NCBI GenBank assembly: GCA_905339165.1
Contig: CAJPFH010000006.1
Span: 1 to 64,000, forward strand
Origin: Flavobacteriales bacterium
GTDB lineage: Bacteria; Bacteroidota; Bacteroidia; Flavobacteriales_E; Vicingaceae
DNA length: 64,000 bases
Reading direction: 5' to 3'
Below, piece after piece: positions 40,571 through 47,833 of this stretch (the stretch's first letter is position 1; every line of letters starts with the position of its first letter). A program made the position numbers and the translations under genes. The notes beneath the pieces are model-generated. The model did no database searches and was not told where the DNA came from. It saw nothing but the letters and a program-made list of their open reading frames with translations.

Positions 40571-41560
40571 ATGCTCAGAAAGTTGTTTTTTTGCTTGTTT
40601 TTTTACTTTACCGCAACGCATATTTTTGCTGCTTGCTATTCTACCGGAAACGGTAATTGGAATAATACAGCTACTTGGTTGTGTAATGGAGTAAATGCAG
40701 TGCCGGGTTGTGGAGATACCATTTATATTCAAACCGGACATACCGTAACAGTAACAAATCAAAATAATTATTACGGTATACCGGGTTGTGCTCCTATGCA
40801 TATCGTTGTTTATGGTACGCTTCAGTTTACTAATGGAAACAAATTAGACTTACCCTGCGGTTCTTCGGTAACCATACCCGTTGGAGGATTGGTTCAAAAA
40901 TCGGGGTCAGGAGGAGGTAGTTCTACGCTAATTGGAATATGTGGAGTTAATGTGTGGACGGCTGGTGACGGACCACAACCGGGGCCTTTAAGCTGGGGTG
41001 GACCACCTTTACCCATTTCTTTAGTTTCTTTTACTGCAGATTTAAAAGAAACTGCGGTTCTACTAAATTGGATTACGGCATCTGAGCAAAACAATAATTA
41101 TTTTACAATAGAAAGAAGTAATAACGCAATAGTTTGGGAGCAAATAGGTATTGTGAAAGGTGCAGGAAATAGTAGTACTACCCTTAATTATTCTTTCTTG
41201 GATAAAAATCCTCTTTCCGGCATCTCCTATTACCGGCTTAAGCAAACCGATTTTGACGGAAAATCTGATATTTCAGATATTGTTTCGGTAAGCAATTTTA
41301 ATATTGAACTAGTAAGTGTTTTTCCTAATCCGGCTAATGATAATATTACTTTTTTATTGATAAGCAAAGAAGATATGACTTGTACCATAAATATATTTAA
41401 CGCCTTAGGACAAGTAGTAGAAAATTATAATTTAAACCTTAAAAAAGGAGAAAATAAAATTCGCCATTCTGTTAATAAACTTAGTTCCGGAGTTAATCTT
41501 ATAGGGATAAGTTTGAATGGGAAGTTTGTTGCTAAAAAACAATTTTTAGTAGGGCAATAA
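40571..41560 (+). CDS. Secreted T9SS protein with fibronectin-like domain
   Basis: A 329-residue exported protein. After the signal (ends THIFAACYST) there is a small Cys-containing beta domain (residues about 20-130; CYSTGN, CNGVNAVPGCGD) like domains that precede T9SS tails. Residues about 145-240 have the linker LPISLVSFTA and a fibronectin type III-like stretch (WITASEQNNNYFTIERS, SYYRLKQTDFDGKSD). Residues about 250-329 are a type A sorting domain (SVFPNPANDNITFLLIS). Role unknown; perhaps adhesive. Confidence 0.75.
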   Translation: MLRKLFFCLFFYFTATHIFAACYSTGNGNWNNTATWLCNGVNAVPGCGDTIYIQTGHTVTVTNQNNYYGIPGCAPMHIVVYGTLQFTNGNKLDLPCGSSVTIPVGGLVQKSGSGGGSSTLIGICGVNVWTAGDGPQPGPLSWGGPPLPISLVSFTADLKETAVLLNWITASEQNNNYFTIERSNNAIVWEQIGIVKGAGNSSTTLNYSFLDKNPLSGISYYRLKQTDFDGKSDISDIVSVSNFNIELVSVFPNPANDNITFLLISKEDMTCTINIFNALGQVVENYNLNLKKGENKIRHSVNKLSSGVNLIGISLNGKFVAKKQFLVGQ

Positions 41561-41566
41561 GAAGGC

Positions 41567-41592
41567 ACAAATTTGCTTTATGTACAAATTTG
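41567..41592. promoter_or_regulatory. Repeated ACAAATTTG(T) motif upstream of the gene at 41641
   Basis: ACAAATTTG at 41567-41575 and the palindrome ACAAATTTGT at 41584-41593, 17 bases apart, lie in the 80-base gap before the next gene. A TACATTTC near-match to the -7 box follows at 41613-41620. Candidate operator. Confidence 0.3.
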
Positions 41593-41640
41593 TTAATTTG
41601 TTAAAAATGTGGTACATTTCGCCTCTAAATAAAAAAAAGG

Positions 41641-42258
41641 TTGAAAAAACAATTCTTTTTATCGGCTGTTTTTTACTTGCTTTTATTGGGTAAGTTTTTT
41701 GCACTAGATAAAACTCCAATAGTAGCCGAAATAGTTTCATTTGAGGCCGTTTTGAATAATCAAGAAGTTTATTTTTATTGGACCACTCAAACCGAAAACA
41801 ATGCCGAGCAGTTTGTTGTAGAATGTTCGGTAGATGGCAAACTTTTTGAAGAAGTGATAGTTCTTCCTGCGGTGGGCAACAGCGATATTCCAATCGAATA
41901 TTTTGATGTAGATCAAACCCCGGAATCGGGCCAATCTTTTTACCGATTAAAAATTACCGACTCTAAAGGAAATACTCATTATACTTCTTCTGTTCCGGTT
42001 ATGAATACTGGTGAGCAAATTAAAATTAATATAGAACAAACAGGAAATAATTGTCTGCAAAATGGAATCGAAAAAGAAAACATTTTAATGATTTTACGTG
42101 ACCAAACCGGCACAGAATATTATTCAAAATTTAATCTTTATAAAAAAGATAATTTGCTTGCAGGTTGCGATTTAGAGCAAAGGGTGCCAGCCGGCATTTA
42201 CGTGGTTACCGGAGCCTCTAAACATATTTACTACTCTTCCAAATTAGTAGTAGAATAG
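41641..42258 (+). CDS. Secreted protein related to the fibronectin-like neighbour
   Basis: A 205-residue exported protein. TTG start with signal peptide KKQFFLSAVFYLLLLGKFFA. Residues about 28-120 resemble the Fn3-like stretch of the upstream T9SS protein (VSFEAVLNNQEVYFYWTTQT, SFYRLKITDSKGNTHYTS), suggesting duplication. The C-terminal part (about 125-205) has two Cys and ends in YYSSKLVVE, a short beta end that resembles the last strand of a sorting domain but lacks the usual PNP motif. Probably secreted; T9SS export uncertain. Confidence 0.55.
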   Translation: MKKQFFLSAVFYLLLLGKFFALDKTPIVAEIVSFEAVLNNQEVYFYWTTQTENNAEQFVVECSVDGKLFEEVIVLPAVGNSDIPIEYFDVDQTPESGQSFYRLKITDSKGNTHYTSSVPVMNTGEQIKINIEQTGNNCLQNGIEKENILMILRDQTGTEYYSKFNLYKKDNLLAGCDLEQRVPAGIYVVTGASKHIYYSSKLVVE

Positions 42259-42274
42259 TCTGCCGCCATTAATG

Positions 42275-42282
42275 GTTTAAAC
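42275..42282. promoter_or_regulatory. GTTTAAAC palindrome upstream of the MerR gene
   Basis: An 8-base palindrome, 46 bases before the MerR start, followed by TTGCT. The same octamer lies before the ECF sigma gene at 43303-43310, also followed by TTGCT, so a shared regulator is plausible. Confidence 0.35.
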
Positions 42283-42328
42283 ATTATTATTTGCTTTTTG
42301 TTTTGTTGGAATAGTTTACCAAACAAAG

Positions 42329-43204
42329 ATGGCAAAGTATTCAATAAAAGAGATAGAAAGTTTAACAGGCATTAAAGCTCATACCATACGCATTTGGGAA
42401 AAAAGATACAATATCATTAACCCCGAACGCACCTCTACCAATATTCGCTTGTATTCCGATGGGGATATTAAAAGAATTTTAAATGTTTCTATTTTAAATC
42501 ATCACGGTTTAAAAATTTCTAAAATCTCAGATTTGTCTAATGATGAAATAAACAATAAAGTGTTACAGCTTACCCTACATTGCAAAGAGGAAGACAGATT
42601 TGTTGATATGCTGGTAGCTTGCATGGTAGAATTAGACGAGCAAAGATTTGAAAAAATAGTAAGCAATTCCGTTTTTAAAATTGGCTTTGAAGAAACAATA
42701 AGCAATGTTGTTTATCCATTATTAGACCGCATTGGTGTTCTTTGGCAAACCGGCAGTATTTCGGCTGCCCAAGAACATTTTATGTCTAATTTAATACGAC
42801 AAAAATTAATTGCAGCTATTGATATTCTTCCTCCCTGCGAAAAAAAAGAACATAATCAATATTTATTGTTTCTTCCCGAAGGCGAACAACACGAAATAGG
42901 TCTTTTGTTTTATTATTACCTATTAAAAAAGAACGGAAAATATGTTATTTATTTAGGGCAATCGGTTCCCCTAAACGATGTAATAGAAATAGCAGAAACA
43001 CGAACCCCTCCATTTCTTTTAACCGCTTTTGTTTGCTCACAAAATAGCATAGATGTGTTATCTTATTTGCAAGAACTAGAAAAAATAAAAAATGTAGAAA
43101 AAATATATATAACCGGAGCTTTTGCCAACCAATTGACTCATACATCCTGTAAAACAGAACTTATTAGCAATATAAAACAATTCTATAAAAACATTTTGGT
43201 TTAA
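42329..43204 (+). CDS. MerR-family regulator with B12-binding domain (CarH/LitR-like)
   Basis: A 291-residue predicted light- and cobalamin-responsive repressor. The N-terminal MerR helix-turn-helix (residues 1-70) has SLTGIKAHTIRIWEKRYNI. The helical B12-contact part has W139-x9-E149-H150, the same spacing as the W, E, H set used by CarH from Thermus to bind and sense adenosylcobalamin. The Rossmann domain has the ExHxxG motif at 186-191 (His188 as lower cobalt ligand). The position after the Trp, His132 in CarH, is Gln140 here, so the light-state bis-His bond may not form. Its neighbour is an ECF sigma factor. In several Bacteroidota such pairs control carotenoid genes, which are absent here. 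Confidence 0.82.
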   Translation: MAKYSIKEIESLTGIKAHTIRIWEKRYNIINPERTSTNIRLYSDGDIKRILNVSILNHHGLKISKISDLSNDEINNKVLQLTLHCKEEDRFVDMLVACMVELDEQRFEKIVSNSVFKIGFEETISNVVYPLLDRIGVLWQTGSISAAQEHFMSNLIRQKLIAAIDILPPCEKKEHNQYLLFLPEGEQHEIGLLFYYYLLKKNGKYVIYLGQSVPLNDVIEIAETRTPPFLLTAFVCSQNSIDVLSYLQELEKIKNVEKIYITGAFANQLTHTSCKTELISNIKQFYKNILV

Positions 43205-43302
43205 ATTAAGCAGTTGATTTGTGTTGATTCACCTCAATTTTTATGCGTTTAATCTAAAAAACATGAGCCACATCATAAAATAATATGATAAAAATCATAA
43301 AT

Positions 43303-43310
43303 GTTTAAAC
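43303..43310. promoter_or_regulatory. GTTTAAAC palindrome upstream of the ECF sigma gene
   Basis: Second copy of the octamer found before the MerR gene, here extended to a 10-base palindrome (TGTTTAAACA), 6 bases upstream of the -7 box TACATTTG. A bound regulator would cover the spacer of the promoter. Two TTGATT copies at a 10-base pitch (43214-43229) lie further up. Confidence 0.35.
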
Positions 43311-43316
43311 AAATCG

Positions 43317-43324
43317 TACATTTG
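43317..43324 (+). promoter_or_regulatory. -7 box for the ECF sigma factor
   Basis: TACATTTG, perfect TAnnTTTG, 20 bases before the ATG at 43345. It overlaps the 3' flank of the GTTTAAAC palindrome region. Confidence 0.45.
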
Positions 43325-43344
43325 CTGAACAAAATTAAAAGTGT

Positions 43345-43851
43345 ATGACAGCAATAGAGTTTAATCATCAGGTGGTAAAGCTGCAAACTCCCTTAAAATA
43401 TTTTGCCATAAAACTTACTGCAGATGCCGAAGATGCTCATGATCTTTTACAAGATACTATTTTAAAAGCATTTAAATACCGAGATAAATTTGTAGATAAA
43501 ACAAACCTGAAAGCATGGTTGTATACCATTATGAAAAATACTTTTATAAACAACTATCGCAGGTCGGTGCGTACAAGAATGATAATAGACAATAGTAAAG
43601 ATTTGTACGTTATAAATACTCCCTCAAAAGTGGTAAATGAAACGGTGGTTTCAAAAATTACGCACAACGATATTTGGAAATCGGTAAATGAATTAAATAA
43701 TGAATTACGTACCCCTTTTAAAATGCACGTAGAAGGCTTTAAATATAAAGAAATTGCCGATGAAATGAATTTGCCTATAGGTACCGTAAAAAGCCGCATT
43801 TTTTTAGCACGCAAAAAGCTAATGGAAGAATTGAAAGAAATTAGAAACTAA
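43345..43851 (+). CDS. ECF-family RNA polymerase sigma factor
   Basis: A 168-residue sigma factor that redirects RNA polymerase. Region 2 reads AEDAHDLLQDTILKAFKYR and AWLYTIMKNTFINNYRR; region 4 has MHVEGFKYKEIADEMNLPIGTVKSRIFLARKKL. No anti-sigma gene is adjacent, so control is probably at its own promoter by the upstream B12-MerR regulator. From memory this subgroup of ECF factors sits by carotenoid genes in many Bacteroidota. It ends 20 bases before the convergent hflX. Confidence 0.9.
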   Translation: MTAIEFNHQVVKLQTPLKYFAIKLTADAEDAHDLLQDTILKAFKYRDKFVDKTNLKAWLYTIMKNTFINNYRRSVRTRMIIDNSKDLYVINTPSKVVNETVVSKITHNDIWKSVNELNNELRTPFKMHVEGFKYKEIADEMNLPIGTVKSRIFLARKKLMEELKEIRN

Positions 43852-43871
43852 TTATTTAAAATCTTTTTAGT

Positions 43872-45065
43872 TTAGTAAAGCAACTTATGAGGATAAATTT
43901 CCACATGTAGTTGCTTTATTTTTTTGTACAGAAGTTCTCTGAGGGGTTCAATATTTTCTTTTTTTGTGGCAGAAATAAAAATGCAGTCGTTATTTAGTTT
44001 TCCCATCCATGTTTCTCTCAGTTCTTCAATACTTACGTTTTCTTTTGTTTTTTCAGAAAGATCAAATGGATCTTTTTCTGTAAAGTGGTAAGCATCTATT
44101 TTATTAAAAATTAGAATAGTGGGCTTGTCTAATGCTTTCAAGTCCTTAAGAGTTTCATTCACCACATTTATTTGTTCTTCAAATGTGGGGTGCGAAATAT
44201 CCACTACATGAAGTAATAAATCAGCTTCACGAACCTCGTCTAAGGTAGATTTAAAAGATTCGATTAGGTGTGTAGGAAGTTTACGAATAAAACCAACCGT
44301 ATCGGAAAGTAAAAAGGGTAAATTTCCGATTACCACTTTTCTAACAGTAGTATCTAAGGTGGCGAATAATTTATTTTCTGCAAACACTTCCGATTTGCTG
44401 AGCATATTCATAAGGGTGGATTTACCCACGTTGGTATAACCTACCAACGCCACACGAACCAGTTGATCGCGGTTTTTGCGCTGGGTTAGCATTTGTTTGT
44501 CTATTGTTTTCAGTTCGTTTTTCAGTTTCGAAATTTTTTCAAGTACAATTCTTTTGTCACTTTCAATTTGTAATTCGCCCGAACCGCTTCGTGTTCCGGT
44601 GCCACCACGCTGGCGTTCAAGGTGTGTCCACATGCGTTTTAAGCGTGGCAGCACGTATTGGTAACGGGCTAATTCTACTTGTGCCTTTGCATGCGAGGTG
44701 CGGGCTCGTTGGGCAAAAATGGTTAAAATAAGTGAAGTGCGATCTTGCACATCGCATTGTAATTCTTTTTCTAAATTGCGTTGTTGCGATGGGGTAAGTT
44801 CGTCATCAAATACTACAAGAGTAATTTCGTGTTGTTTAACAAATTCGGCAATTTCTTTTAGTTTTCCGGAGCCAATATAGGTTCCGGGAAGGGGTTTGGT
44901 TAGTTTTTGGGTAAAGCGTTTTACTACATTATACCCAGAGGTGTAAACCAAAAATTCAAGTTCATTTAAAAATTCATTTATTTGTTGGTCATCATTTTCT
45001 TTTAAGGAAACTCCAACCAATACTGCTTTATCTTTTTTTACATTAGTGGTTTCGGTATTCTTCAT
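43872..45065 (-). CDS. hflX: GTPase HflX
   Basis: A 397-residue ribosome-associated GTPase that splits stalled ribosomes, notably under heat stress. The N-terminal HflX domain (residues about 1-190) has FTQKLTKPLPGTYIGSGKL and the RQRGGTGTRSGSGE loop; the G domain has GYTNVGKSTL (G1) and NKID (G4). Family fingerprint ARYQYVLPRLKRMWTHLERQ is present. The length is standard. It follows the small haem-like membrane protein by 4 bases on the minus strand, so one promoter should serve both. Confidence 0.95.
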   Translation of the reverse strand: MKNTETTNVKKDKAVLVGVSLKENDDQQINEFLNELEFLVYTSGYNVVKRFTQKLTKPLPGTYIGSGKLKEIAEFVKQHEITLVVFDDELTPSQQRNLEKELQCDVQDRTSLILTIFAQRARTSHAKAQVELARYQYVLPRLKRMWTHLERQRGGTGTRSGSGELQIESDKRIVLEKISKLKNELKTIDKQMLTQRKNRDQLVRVALVGYTNVGKSTLMNMLSKSEVFAENKLFATLDTTVRKVVIGNLPFLLSDTVGFIRKLPTHLIESFKSTLDEVREADLLLHVVDISHPTFEEQINVVNETLKDLKALDKPTILIFNKIDAYHFTEKDPFDLSEKTKENVSIEELRETWMGKLNNDCIFISATKKENIEPLRELLYKKIKQLHVEIYPHKLLY

Positions 45066-45069
45066 AAAG

Positions 45070-45531
45070 TTAAAACCAACCTCTCCCTTCGCCTACCAAA
45101 AGGGTTGGCCACGGAATAAGCATCATTATGAGTAAAAAAGCAAGTGTATAAAAGAGAACAGTACGTTTGTGTTTTAGTTGGTCATTAACTGCTTTTTTGG
45201 TAAGTATTCTACCCATTGTAATTAGAGCAATGGCAGCTATCATTCCTCCTATGTGTTCTACTGCCCAAAATCGTAAAATGGAATCTTTCATGGCAAAGCC
45301 CATTCCACGAACCATTGCAACTTGTATAAACGGACTGATAAAGTATAAAAACAAACCAATGAGTAATTGGGTGTGGGCAGTAATCATTAGAAATAATCCA
45401 ATTTTATTGTCGGTAGATTCAAAAGGAGTTTTGTTTAATAATCCTTTAATAGATCGCACTATAGCAAGGATAATCAGAAACAACAAAACATAACGTAAAA
45501 AGGAGTGCAAGTGAAGTAGTCCGGTGTACAT
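45070..45531 (-). CDS. Cytochrome b-like four-helix membrane protein
   Basis: A 153-residue protein with four predicted membrane helices. His7 and His9 (LHLHSFLRY), a later His (TAHTQLLIG) and HIGG in the third helix area could bind haem between helices, as in b-type cytochromes; this is pattern-based. The second half has GRILTKKAV and an aromatic C-terminus. Such proteins are often annotated 'cytochrome B' in Bacteroidota without proof. It is the first gene of a unit with hflX, 4 bases apart. Confidence 0.6.
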   Translation of the reverse strand: MYTGLLHLHSFLRYVLLFLIILAIVRSIKGLLNKTPFESTDNKIGLFLMITAHTQLLIGLFLYFISPFIQVAMVRGMGFAMKDSILRFWAVEHIGGMIAAIALITMGRILTKKAVNDQLKHKRTVLFYTLAFLLIMMLIPWPTLLVGEGRGWF

Positions 45532-45544
45532 AATAAGGTTTTGG

Positions 45545-45552
45545 CAAAAGTA
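45545..45552 (-). promoter_or_regulatory. -7 box for the cytochrome b-like/hflX unit
   Basis: The minus strand reads TACTTTTG (perfect TAnnTTTG), 13 bases before the ATG at 45531. Confidence 0.45.
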
Positions 45553-45664
45553 ACAAATACAATGTTTAAATGTTTTTACGGAGATTTATTTTTGCTTAAA
45601 AACAGAGGGTCCAAATTAAAAACGGTTCATCTGATTAAAAATATTTTTCGGATTTAGAAGAGCA

Positions 45665-47833
45665 TTAAACCTGTATTCCTATAATACAAACATCATCAAT
45701 TTGTTCTAATTTACCTTTCCATGTTTCGAAAGAGGTATGGATAAGTTCTTTTTGTTTGGCCATCGTTTGGTTTTGAATGCTTAATAAAAGAGATTTAAGT
45801 TTAGACGATTTAAATTTCTTGCCTTTTTCACCACCAAACTGGTCTTGCAAACCATCGGTAAAAAGGTAAACAATATCTTTTTTTTGTAATTCAATAGTGT
45901 GTGTGGTAAAAGGCAATGGATTATCAACTTTTCCAATGGGTTGTTTGTTGGGTTTAATCTCTAACAGTTCTTTATTTTTATTACGAATAACCCATAAAGG
46001 ATTATTTGCTCCCGCCCATTCTAATACAATTTTTCGGTTTTCACTTTCATTGTGTTTATTGATTAGAATTGAAGCGAGTGAAATATCCATTCCATCTAAA
46101 ACATCTTCATTATTCTTACTTAGTTTTTCTATAACAATCTCTCTTGTTCTAGAAAGCAGGTTTCCTGGGTTTTCATTTTTTTCTTCAAGCAAGGCCTTAG
46201 AAAGTGCATTACTGCACACTACACTTACCATAGCTCCGGGTACACCATGTCCAGTACAATCAGCAGCAGCAAAGTATATTCTTTCGTTTAATTTTTCTAT
46301 CCAATAGAAATCACCTGCTACAATGTCTTTTGGTTTGTAAAAAATAAAATGGTTAGGAAGTAGTTCTTGTATTGTTTTATTTGAAGGTAAAATTGCTTCT
46401 TGTATGCGTTTGGCATAGGTAATGCTATCTAAAATGTCTTTATTTTTTGCACGAATAATCTTGTTTTGAGAGCGACTAATTTTCAAATTTTTAAAAATAA
46501 GAAATGCAATTATGGTTAAGAATAATAATCCCCCAATTGATGCATAAATAAACATTGATTGCCGTTTTTCTTTTTCTTTCAAAATTTCTATTTTTCTTTT
46601 GTTTTCTTCTTTTGCCAAAGCTTCTTTTTTATCAAAATCATATTGCATTTGCTGCTGTATATTTTTTTTGGAATTTTCTTCATTTACTATACTATCTTTT
46701 AAAGCAATAAATTTTTTATAATGATCCAATGCAAGTTTATACTGTTTTGTTGTATCGTATAACAGATAAAAATAATGTTCCTGATCTCTTAGTAATCCTA
46801 ATGCGTTTAATTCGTTTGATATCTCTAATGCTTTTTTTAAATATTGCTCGGCTTTTAAATATTCACCGGAATGAAGGTATAAGGCTCCTAAATTTCCGAT
46901 AGTTATGGCTTCATAATATTTATTCCCAAGGTCTTTACACACATCTAACATTAAGGAAAAATACTTTAATGCATTTTCTTTTAATTTTTTTTTTTCTTTA
47001 GGAATAGTTGTTAAATTGTACTGCTCAGAAAATACTGAAGCCACATTTAATAATACTGCGGCTTCTATGTTTTTATCGTTTGTTTCCTTAGTAATCTCTA
47101 GTGCTTTTTCGTAATATTCTAATGCTTTTTGTAATATTTTATTTTTTTCAGTTACACTTTTTATATTGGTTGATTGCTCGGCATAAACTGTTCCGATGTT
47201 TACATATTGATTCATCTTTAGTCTTATGTTACCTATGGACTCTGCCATTACCAACACATTTGTATAATATTCAATGGCTTTTGTATAATTTTTTTCCTCG
47301 GTATATACAATACCAATATTTCCCATATTAATAAGTATGCCTTCATCATAATTAATTTCTTCGTTAATTCGTAAGGCTTTGAAGAAATATTCAAGAGCTT
47401 TAGGATGATTAGATTGGCTTAAGTTGACTAAACCTAAACCCGAAAAAGCATTTGAAAGCATTAGCTTAAATTTTTCTTTTTCTGCAATTTGTTGTGCATT
47501 TTCAAAACAACTTTTTGCATGAGAAAATTCCCCCATGGAGTAATATGTGTCTCCAAGTTTAATTAAGGCATTTCCCATTCCCACTTTTGAATTTATTGAA
47601 CGAGCTATTTTAAAAGCCTTTTTACTGAATTCTAAAGCTTGTTTGTTGTTATGATATAATACCTTGCCAACAAGTTTAATGTATGCACTAATTTTTTGTG
47701 TATCCGCAGCATTAGAATTCGTTAAGGTAATTAACGAGTCTAAAAACGCATTTTTCTCGAAAGCAAAATACTTGTAGTGATAAAATAGTAAAAAATAGAC
47801 CAGAAGAAGGCTCTTTACGAATTTACTTTTCAT
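45665..47833 (-). CDS. TPR-repeat sensor with SpoIIE-type PP2C phosphatase domain
   Basis: A 722-residue signalling protein. An N-terminal signal or membrane segment (residues about 8-25) is followed by about eight tetratricopeptide repeats (residues about 40-390; YSMGEFSHAKSCFENAQ, YYTNVLVMAESIG, GEYLKAEQYLKKALEI), a coiled part, a membrane helix (FIYASIGGLLFLTIIAFLIF), a short linker and a C-terminal SpoIIE phosphatase domain (residues about 490-722; AGDFYWIEKL, AAADCTGHGVPGAMVSV). The TPRs face the periplasm; the phosphatase is cytoplasmic and would dephosphorylate a serine on a partner, classically an anti-anti-sigma factor. This TPR-SpoIIE layout is common in Bacteroidota, ligand unknown. 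A palindrome lies in its upstream region. Confidence 0.85.
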   Translation of the reverse strand: MKSKFVKSLLLVYFLLFYHYKYFAFEKNAFLDSLITLTNSNAADTQKISAYIKLVGKVLYHNNKQALEFSKKAFKIARSINSKVGMGNALIKLGDTYYSMGEFSHAKSCFENAQQIAEKEKFKLMLSNAFSGLGLVNLSQSNHPKALEYFFKALRINEEINYDEGILINMGNIGIVYTEEKNYTKAIEYYTNVLVMAESIGNIRLKMNQYVNIGTVYAEQSTNIKSVTEKNKILQKALEYYEKALEITKETNDKNIEAAVLLNVASVFSEQYNLTTIPKEKKKLKENALKYFSLMLDVCKDLGNKYYEAITIGNLGALYLHSGEYLKAEQYLKKALEISNELNALGLLRDQEHYFYLLYDTTKQYKLALDHYKKFIALKDSIVNEENSKKNIQQQMQYDFDKKEALAKEENKRKIEILKEKEKRQSMFIYASIGGLLFLTIIAFLIFKNLKISRSQNKIIRAKNKDILDSITYAKRIQEAILPSNKTIQELLPNHFIFYKPKDIVAGDFYWIEKLNERIYFAAADCTGHGVPGAMVSVVCSNALSKALLEEKNENPGNLLSRTREIVIEKLSKNNEDVLDGMDISLASILINKHNESENRKIVLEWAGANNPLWVIRNKNKELLEIKPNKQPIGKVDNPLPFTTHTIELQKKDIVYLFTDGLQDQFGGEKGKKFKSSKLKSLLLSIQNQTMAKQKELIHTSFETWKGKLEQIDDVCIIGIQV

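Follow-up and report, generated by a model that had tools for sequence, protein, structure and literature searches.

The genes merR and ecf in the window, by which is meant the whole stretch of 64,000 nucleotides that was analysed (positions 1-64000 of contig 6 in a 3.16-Mb draft genome scored as 100% complete), are a real and maintained CarH-like pair of sensor and sigma factor, with two distinct predicted control sites and without pigment genes. The most plausible hypothesis for their function, to which we give a probability of roughly 0.6, is that AdoCbl-bound MerR would repress ecf in the dark, that light or loss of AdoCbl would release this repression, and that the sigma factor would then drive merR as feedback together with a small stress regulon.

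The merR-ecf locus

The module and its boundary comprise the following features.

42278 to 42302, forward strand: predicted ECF-sigma promoter of merR, TAAAC-N16-TGTT (-35 AAAC at 42279-42282, -10 TGTT at 42299-42302)
42329 to 43204, forward strand: merR, encoding a CarH/LitR-like repressor of 291 aa with a B12-binding domain (Pfam MerR_1, B12-binding_2)
43302 to 43331, forward strand: inverted repeat TGTTTAA-N16-CTGAACA, the putative operator of MerR, which encloses the predicted sigma-A -7 box TACATTTG (43317-43324)
43345 to 43851, forward strand: ecf, encoding an ECF-type RNA polymerase sigma factor of 168 aa (Pfam Sigma70_r2, Sigma70_r4_2)
43872 to 45065, reverse strand: hflX, the convergent neighbour that bounds the module and lies outside it (TIGR03156 GTP_HflX, E 5e-128)

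Both reading frames, and hflX as the next gene, had been predicted originally and were confirmed by ORF positions and domain searches. A gap of 140 bases separates merR, a single-copy gene in this genome, from ecf, and the stop codons of ecf and hflX lie only 20 bases apart, with no crt remnants at the pair. No RNA element was matched in Rfam within 41000-46000. Since no anti-sigma gene lies beside ecf, the ECF factor would be regulated through its own synthesis. The genome also encodes a PduO-type cobalamin adenosyltransferase, which could make AdoCbl and is a point in favour of reading MerR as a sensor. A small signal-peptide-like ORF (41641-42258) immediately precedes merR, here and in the other species of the genus; it has no Pfam match and a dN/dS of 0.09.

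Carotenoid and photolyase genes in this genome and its relatives

The pair was expected from the original prediction to stand without carotenoid genes, and phytoene synthase (PF00494) is indeed absent from the whole genome, scored as complete, and from the other species of the genus. Photolyase, searched for with PF00875 only, is also absent from the genome. Among 46 genomes of the order, all from one family, MerR was found in 31, phytoene synthase in 29 and both in 27. MerR occurs without PF00494 in both members of this genus and in two incomplete genomes, G035 and G036, in which the contig stops at the gene or the pair and which were counted neither way; phytoene synthase without MerR occurs in two incomplete genomes, and in G023 the two genes lie on separate short contigs. 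The surroundings of merR were read in 28 genomes besides that of the window, and crtI-crtB lies within three genes in 26 of these, 13 of which have the ECF gene between merR and crt. The two exceptions are the sister species (G005), which has no crt, and G036, where the contig is cut off beside the pair, so that outside this genus all 26 legible MerR loci of the order have crt alongside. The names crtI and photolyase were checked on one locus, while crtB was identified through PF00494.

A different picture emerges from 80 named loci across the phylum, of which 21 combine ECF with crt, 31 have ECF without crt (that is, no crtI or crtB within about 5 kb), two have crt without ECF and 26 have neither. 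The claim that such pairs in Bacteroidota usually sit beside crt genes therefore holds within the order (26 of 28) but not phylum-wide, where 31 of the 52 loci with the pair are crt-free, mostly in Bacteroidales according to their record labels. In a tree of 68 joined MerR and ECF sequences, built with a quick method, the genus of the window is placed beside the crt clade of the order with a support of 90 and outside the starred fork of that clade; the crt-free Bacteroidales rows for the most part group apart. This topology would fit loss of crt and never having had it alike.

Several other arrangements were observed during this survey. The order relative G028 has three B12-MerR genes (L063, L065), two of which share the short contig L065, where no crt was recognised. 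An aspartate-kinase-like gene, named by eye, lies 113-153 bases after the crt-free pair in five Bacteroidales loci (L208, L218, L242, L249, L267), and in five further loci of the survey (L217, L234, L240, L254, L269) a crtZ-like gene lies just before the B12-MerR gene, after which the queries used recognised no ECF, crtI or crtB. In a metagenome-assembled genome labelled Chryseobacterium (L260, 5001-5786) a B12-MerR gene directly precedes crtI-crtB; by contrast, the light-induced Chryseobacterium lacus is reported to lack car and lit genes, and a regulator of unknown kind is suspected there (PMC7064467).

One may ask whether the pair is a relic, left to drift without function after the loss of crt and photolyase. 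Such a history would suit the absence here of both well-supported target pathways, the lack of a clear regulon described below and the retention of crt beside the pair in relatives of the order, but the sequences do not have the appearance of drift. When the genus's two species are compared, dN/dS is 0.10 for MerR (dN 0.023, dS 0.22) and 0.07 for hflX; the ECF factor is identical at 167 of 168 residues and the region upstream of ecf at 137 of 140 bases. Furthermore, there are many crt-free pairs, most of which fall into a group of their own. By these measures the MerR-ECF pair is under purifying selection and maintained, and a functionless relic is quite improbable.

A predicted operator upstream of ecf

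The conserved operator-like element of the module is situated in the predicted promoter of ecf, the gene adjoining merR. The 30-bp inverted repeat TGTTTAA-N16-YTRAACA is present in all 67 ecf upstream regions (15 from the order and 52 named loci; column counts are from the 45 sites with full flanks) when at least 10 of 12 arm bases are required, and it is perfect in 56 of them. Reversed ecf upstream regions, used as control, gave five matches at this threshold and none that was perfect. The repeat encloses TACATTTG, which we take to be a Bacteroidota-type -7 box, and in a perfect-match scan the exact repeat occurs once in the 3.16-Mb genome. Where genomes of the order lack a linked ECF gene, the repeat instead precedes merR(-crt), in 13 of 15 cases (two by a looser pattern), which fits its being the operator of MerR itself. 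The placement of both conserved elements is gene-specific; which protein binds which element is our inference.

Allowing one mismatch yields 13 operator sites in the genome, 10 within coding sequence and three intergenic. Second targets of MerR were sought among the latter and rejected, as no obvious light gene follows any of the three, although one lies 12 bases before what appears by eye to be a further sigma factor gene.

A predicted ECF promoter upstream of merR

Another element, RAAC-N16-YGTT, precedes merR in 14 of 15 order genomes with a linked ECF gene, in two of 15 merR upstream regions without one, and in none of 15 ecf upstream regions; L046, a near-copy, was left out of these 15-row counts. 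Among 20 spacings tried in this discovery set, 16 was unique, with the next best reaching 3/15. Both this pattern and that of the operator were first spotted by eye on the order relatives, and the counts from the order are therefore descriptive, with the 52 named ECF-linked loci serving as the independent test. In these the element was found before merR in 24, of which 21 belong to the 31 crt-free and three to the 21 crt-linked loci, and it was also found in 6 of 26 named loci in which neither ECF nor crt was recognised. Spacing 16 again stood out in the crt-free loci, where the next best spacing gave 7/31. The low frequency in crt-linked loci indicates that the proposed feedback is not universal.

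The original prediction had centred on the octamer GTTTAAAC, followed by TTGCT, as a palindrome shared by the two upstream regions. Both copies are present, at 42275-42282 before merR and at 43303-43310 before ecf, with TTGCT 8 and 11 bases later, respectively. As a shared element the octamer was rejected, since it occurs at chance frequency (4 observed and 3.6 expected in the window; 116 in the genome and 95 for the reversed pattern), is found in only 4 of 47 merR or ecf upstream regions of the order, and is altered to GCTTAAAC on the merR side in the sister species. Crt genes beside the pair elsewhere, with the octamer absent from related genomes, had been named as telling against the prediction, and for the octamer this is what was found. 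The ecf-side copy is part of TGTTTAAACAAATCGTACATTTGCTGAACA (43302-43331), the inverted repeat TGTTTAA-N16-YTRAACA, and the merR-side copy overlaps the -35 AAAC of TAAAC-N16-TGTT. The two copies thus appear to belong to two different elements, a predicted MerR operator at ecf and a predicted ECF-type promoter at merR, and the better-conserved operator would take the place of the octamer.

The model implied by the first proposal, in which both octamers are MerR sites and both promoters are controlled by MerR, draws on the two copies in this genome and on the operator pattern that precedes merR in 4 of 31 crt-free named loci. It is hard to reconcile with the chance frequency of the octamer and with the sister species, in which the merR copy is broken and RAAC-N16-YGTT remains intact. 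Moreover, none of 16 ECF-linked order genomes has the strict operator before merR, with one looser match (L056), and we consider control of both promoters by MerR very improbable.

The MerR protein as a putative B12 sensor

MerR matches the CarH/LitR chains of T. thermophilus (E 3e-21) in an alignment spanning residues 3-224. Its AlphaFold model (mean pLDDT 83.5) superimposes on the cobalamin domain of CarH with Z 21.3 and an rmsd of 2.4 over 192 aligned residues, on the domain of the photocobilin SasPcob with Z 20.5 and on that of CtMerR with Z 19.9. Pfam, alignment and model agree on the complete architecture of class I CarH/LitR proteins, a MerR DNA-binding domain followed by four-helix and Rossmann B12-binding domains. 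With 107 bits over residues 3-224 the protein falls below the 400-bit cut-off of the NCBIfam equivalog CarH (NF052513); judged by sequence, MerR is homologous to CarH but lies outside this equivalog.

The W139-x9-E149-H150 set and His188 are as originally described and are invariant across 16 aligned ECF-linked MerR proteins. SignatureFinder proposes GxxW, EH, GxxH and GxxxP as light-response motifs (PMC11796333), and all four are present in MerR, as GVLW, EH, GEQH and GQSVP; by a crude text match, all four occur in 63 of 109 proteins. The position of CarH His132, the residue of the bis-His ligation that follows photolysis in T. thermophilus CarH, is occupied by Gln140. The presence of this glutamine had been pointed out correctly, but as a distinctive substitution it was rejected, being ordinary in Bacteroidota: histidine is found there in none of 31 proteins of the order, and the 108 proteins that carry the W-x9-EH motif have Q (67), L (28) or other residues (13) but never H.

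His132 is reported to be needed for full light-driven break-up of the T. thermophilus CarH tetramer, the H132A variant being mostly tetrameric in light (PMC10442372). Nevertheless, according to PMC11796333, light still converts the CtMerR tetramer into monomers although this protein has Arg in place of His132, and the light-responsive photocobilin SasPcob has Gln there. The Arg of CtMerR suggests that His132 says more about mechanism than about family membership, and taken together these reports make a His132-independent light response of MerR possible but not assured.

These residues also bear on another explanation, that the pair senses AdoCbl supply or the redox state of cobalamin instead of light, apo-MerR leaving the operator when AdoCbl is scarce. 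This would agree with the glutamine in MerR and the lack of histidine in every relative, with the behaviour of H132A, and with the fact that DNA binding of the CarH type is AdoCbl-dependent in any case. In addition, crt-free pairs come mostly from Bacteroidales metagenome-assembled genomes, and some isolate names seem to indicate sediment, where light is scarce. The light-driven monomerisation of CtMerR and the glutamine of a photocobilin weigh in the other direction, as does the company of photolyase and carotenoid genes that the module keeps in relatives. Sensing of AdoCbl or of cobalamin redox state instead of light is unlikely in our opinion.

Candidate regulon of the sigma factor

Among relatives that have the pair, SDR genes are preceded by the ECF motif in 7 of 10 cases, compared with 12 of 437 for genes of other kinds (p 8e-9 by Fisher's test); most of these SDR genes lead to photolyase, forming SDR-photolyase units. 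By gene, the motif was found before merR in 37/67, crtB in 4/34 and photolyase itself in 1/14, and linked crt genes run co-directional with ecf. Single strict sites in relatives precede, among others, a DUF2805 gene (G002) and msrA (G040).

In the genome studied here no genome-wide excess of the motif was found (86 compared with 88 in the control), and its strict form is not above control either (15 compared with 20 sites). Nine of the 15 strict sites are just upstream of a gene, merR among them. Besides merR this leaves eight, where 4.1 were expected from the same half-sites at other spacings (P about 0.06); this is the fairer control and its figure was adopted, superseding the strong upstream placement (9 compared with 1.1) obtained with a shuffled-column control. 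Strict sites precede an Fe/Mn sod gene by 70 bases and a DUF4199 gene by 29 bases, both families having been assigned by domain search, and two genes by 133 and 139 bases. The latter are presumably rpoD and etfB, judging by their domains.

The sod site is present in both species of the genus, and sod was rejected as a conserved target because none of the seven ECF-linked relatives with a start found has the site; three rows in which no start was found (L176, L197, L201) were left out of this comparison. The sister species has two near-identical copies of the sequence that precedes sod, ECF-like site included, on the reverse strand of G005 contig 28 (L172, at about 133 and 1696), and one of them no longer leads into sod. 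An ECF-like site also precedes a PTPS-folE-x-fabD cluster (fabD named by eye), with 17 bases between its boxes here and 16 in the sister species. In three of the 31 crt-free loci (L204, L215 and L251, all Bacteroidales) the gene immediately after ecf is PTPS or folE, recognised by eye, but the PTPS and folE genes scored in ECF loci carry no motif of their own (0/1 and 0/5). PTPS-folE and sod may be regarded as weak candidates for the regulon in this genome, leading but unproven.

As the pair is uncoupled from carotenoid genes, any regulon must differ from a carotenoid one. The idea of a different regulon acting through the sigma factor stands to this extent, crt being absent, but the strict sites (15 compared with 20) do not amount to a clear regulon.

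Discussion

A MerR operator over ecf, an ECF-type promoter before merR and the lack of an anti-sigma gene make negative feedback the simplest reading of the module. In the dark, AdoCbl-bound MerR would occupy the 30-bp inverted repeat across the ecf promoter and block ecf; light would break the Co-C bond, or AdoCbl would be lost, and the promoter would be freed. The ECF sigma factor would then transcribe merR from RAAC-N16-YGTT, refilling the repressor and making the response self-limiting, and would also transcribe a small stress regulon. In relatives this regulon would include the SDR-photolyase unit, and in this genus, which lacks crt and photolyase, it would have other members. Among the observations that count against the circuit, the best-supported sigma targets of relatives are missing here, and MerR lacks His132, reported to be needed for full light-driven tetramer break-up in T. 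thermophilus CarH.

One may speculate further that a standard negative-feedback light/AdoCbl circuit extends across Bacteroidota, with TGTTTAA-N16-TTRAACA at ecf and RAAC-N16-YGTT at merR. Carotenoids would be one plug-in output, and the large crt-free branch and this genus would have others, e.g. pterin (PTPS-folE) synthesis and superoxide defence, by way of a His132-independent photochemistry. This generalisation is tentative and in our judgement falls short of even odds.

These results define, at the sequence level, the two control sites of a Bacteroidota B12-MerR/ECF module, and the regulon should therefore be predictable and testable genome by genome. The module persists where its usual companion, the pigment pathway, is missing, and the large set of B12-MerR proteins without His132 offers a test of whether the bis-His photochemistry of CarH applies generally. 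Titles and the beginnings of abstracts in the open-access literature, subscription papers being outside the scope of the search, contained no recognisable report of a B12-MerR/ECF pair in Bacteroidota.

The nearest known system is LitR-LitS of Streptomyces coelicolor, in which LitR acts on litS, sigma-LitS transcribes crtE and light-activated LitR is reported to promote litS (PMC12705666). The likeness would lie in a B12-MerR photosensor placed over a sigma factor that reads target promoters. Activation is described for LitR, whereas the repeat over the promoter suggests repression here. Furthermore, merR has a predicted ECF promoter here and carotenoid genes are lacking; crt transcription by the sigma factor, as in LitR-LitS, has no counterpart without PF00494 in this genome or the sister species.

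With CarH of Thermus thermophilus and Myxococcus xanthus the protein shares the MerR, four-helix and Rossmann B12 domains, the GxxW, EH, GxxH and GxxxP motifs and, as predicted here, an operator over the target promoter. It differs in lacking the equivalent of His132 (T. thermophilus numbering), in an inverted-repeat operator where CarH is reported to use tandem 11-bp direct repeats (PMC9304148), and in its predicted target, a sigma factor gene and not crt. CtMerR of Chloracidobacterium thermophilum (PDB 8JBS/8JBT) is likewise a B12-MerR without His at the 132 position and resembles the model at the Z given above, but identity in the structural alignment is 19%, and linkage to a sigma factor is not described for it in the available part of PMC11796333.

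Class II LitR proteins of Pseudomonas keep the four-helix part of the B12 domain only and work with LOV proteins, and an ECF factor is not described for this system in the part of the report available (PMC9758184). Their light regulon, which comprises phrB, SDR, folE and cryB (PMC9758184), is nonetheless carotenoid-free, and its photolyase, SDR and GTP cyclohydrolase I genes recall the SDR-photolyase units of the relatives and the candidate folE of the genome described here.
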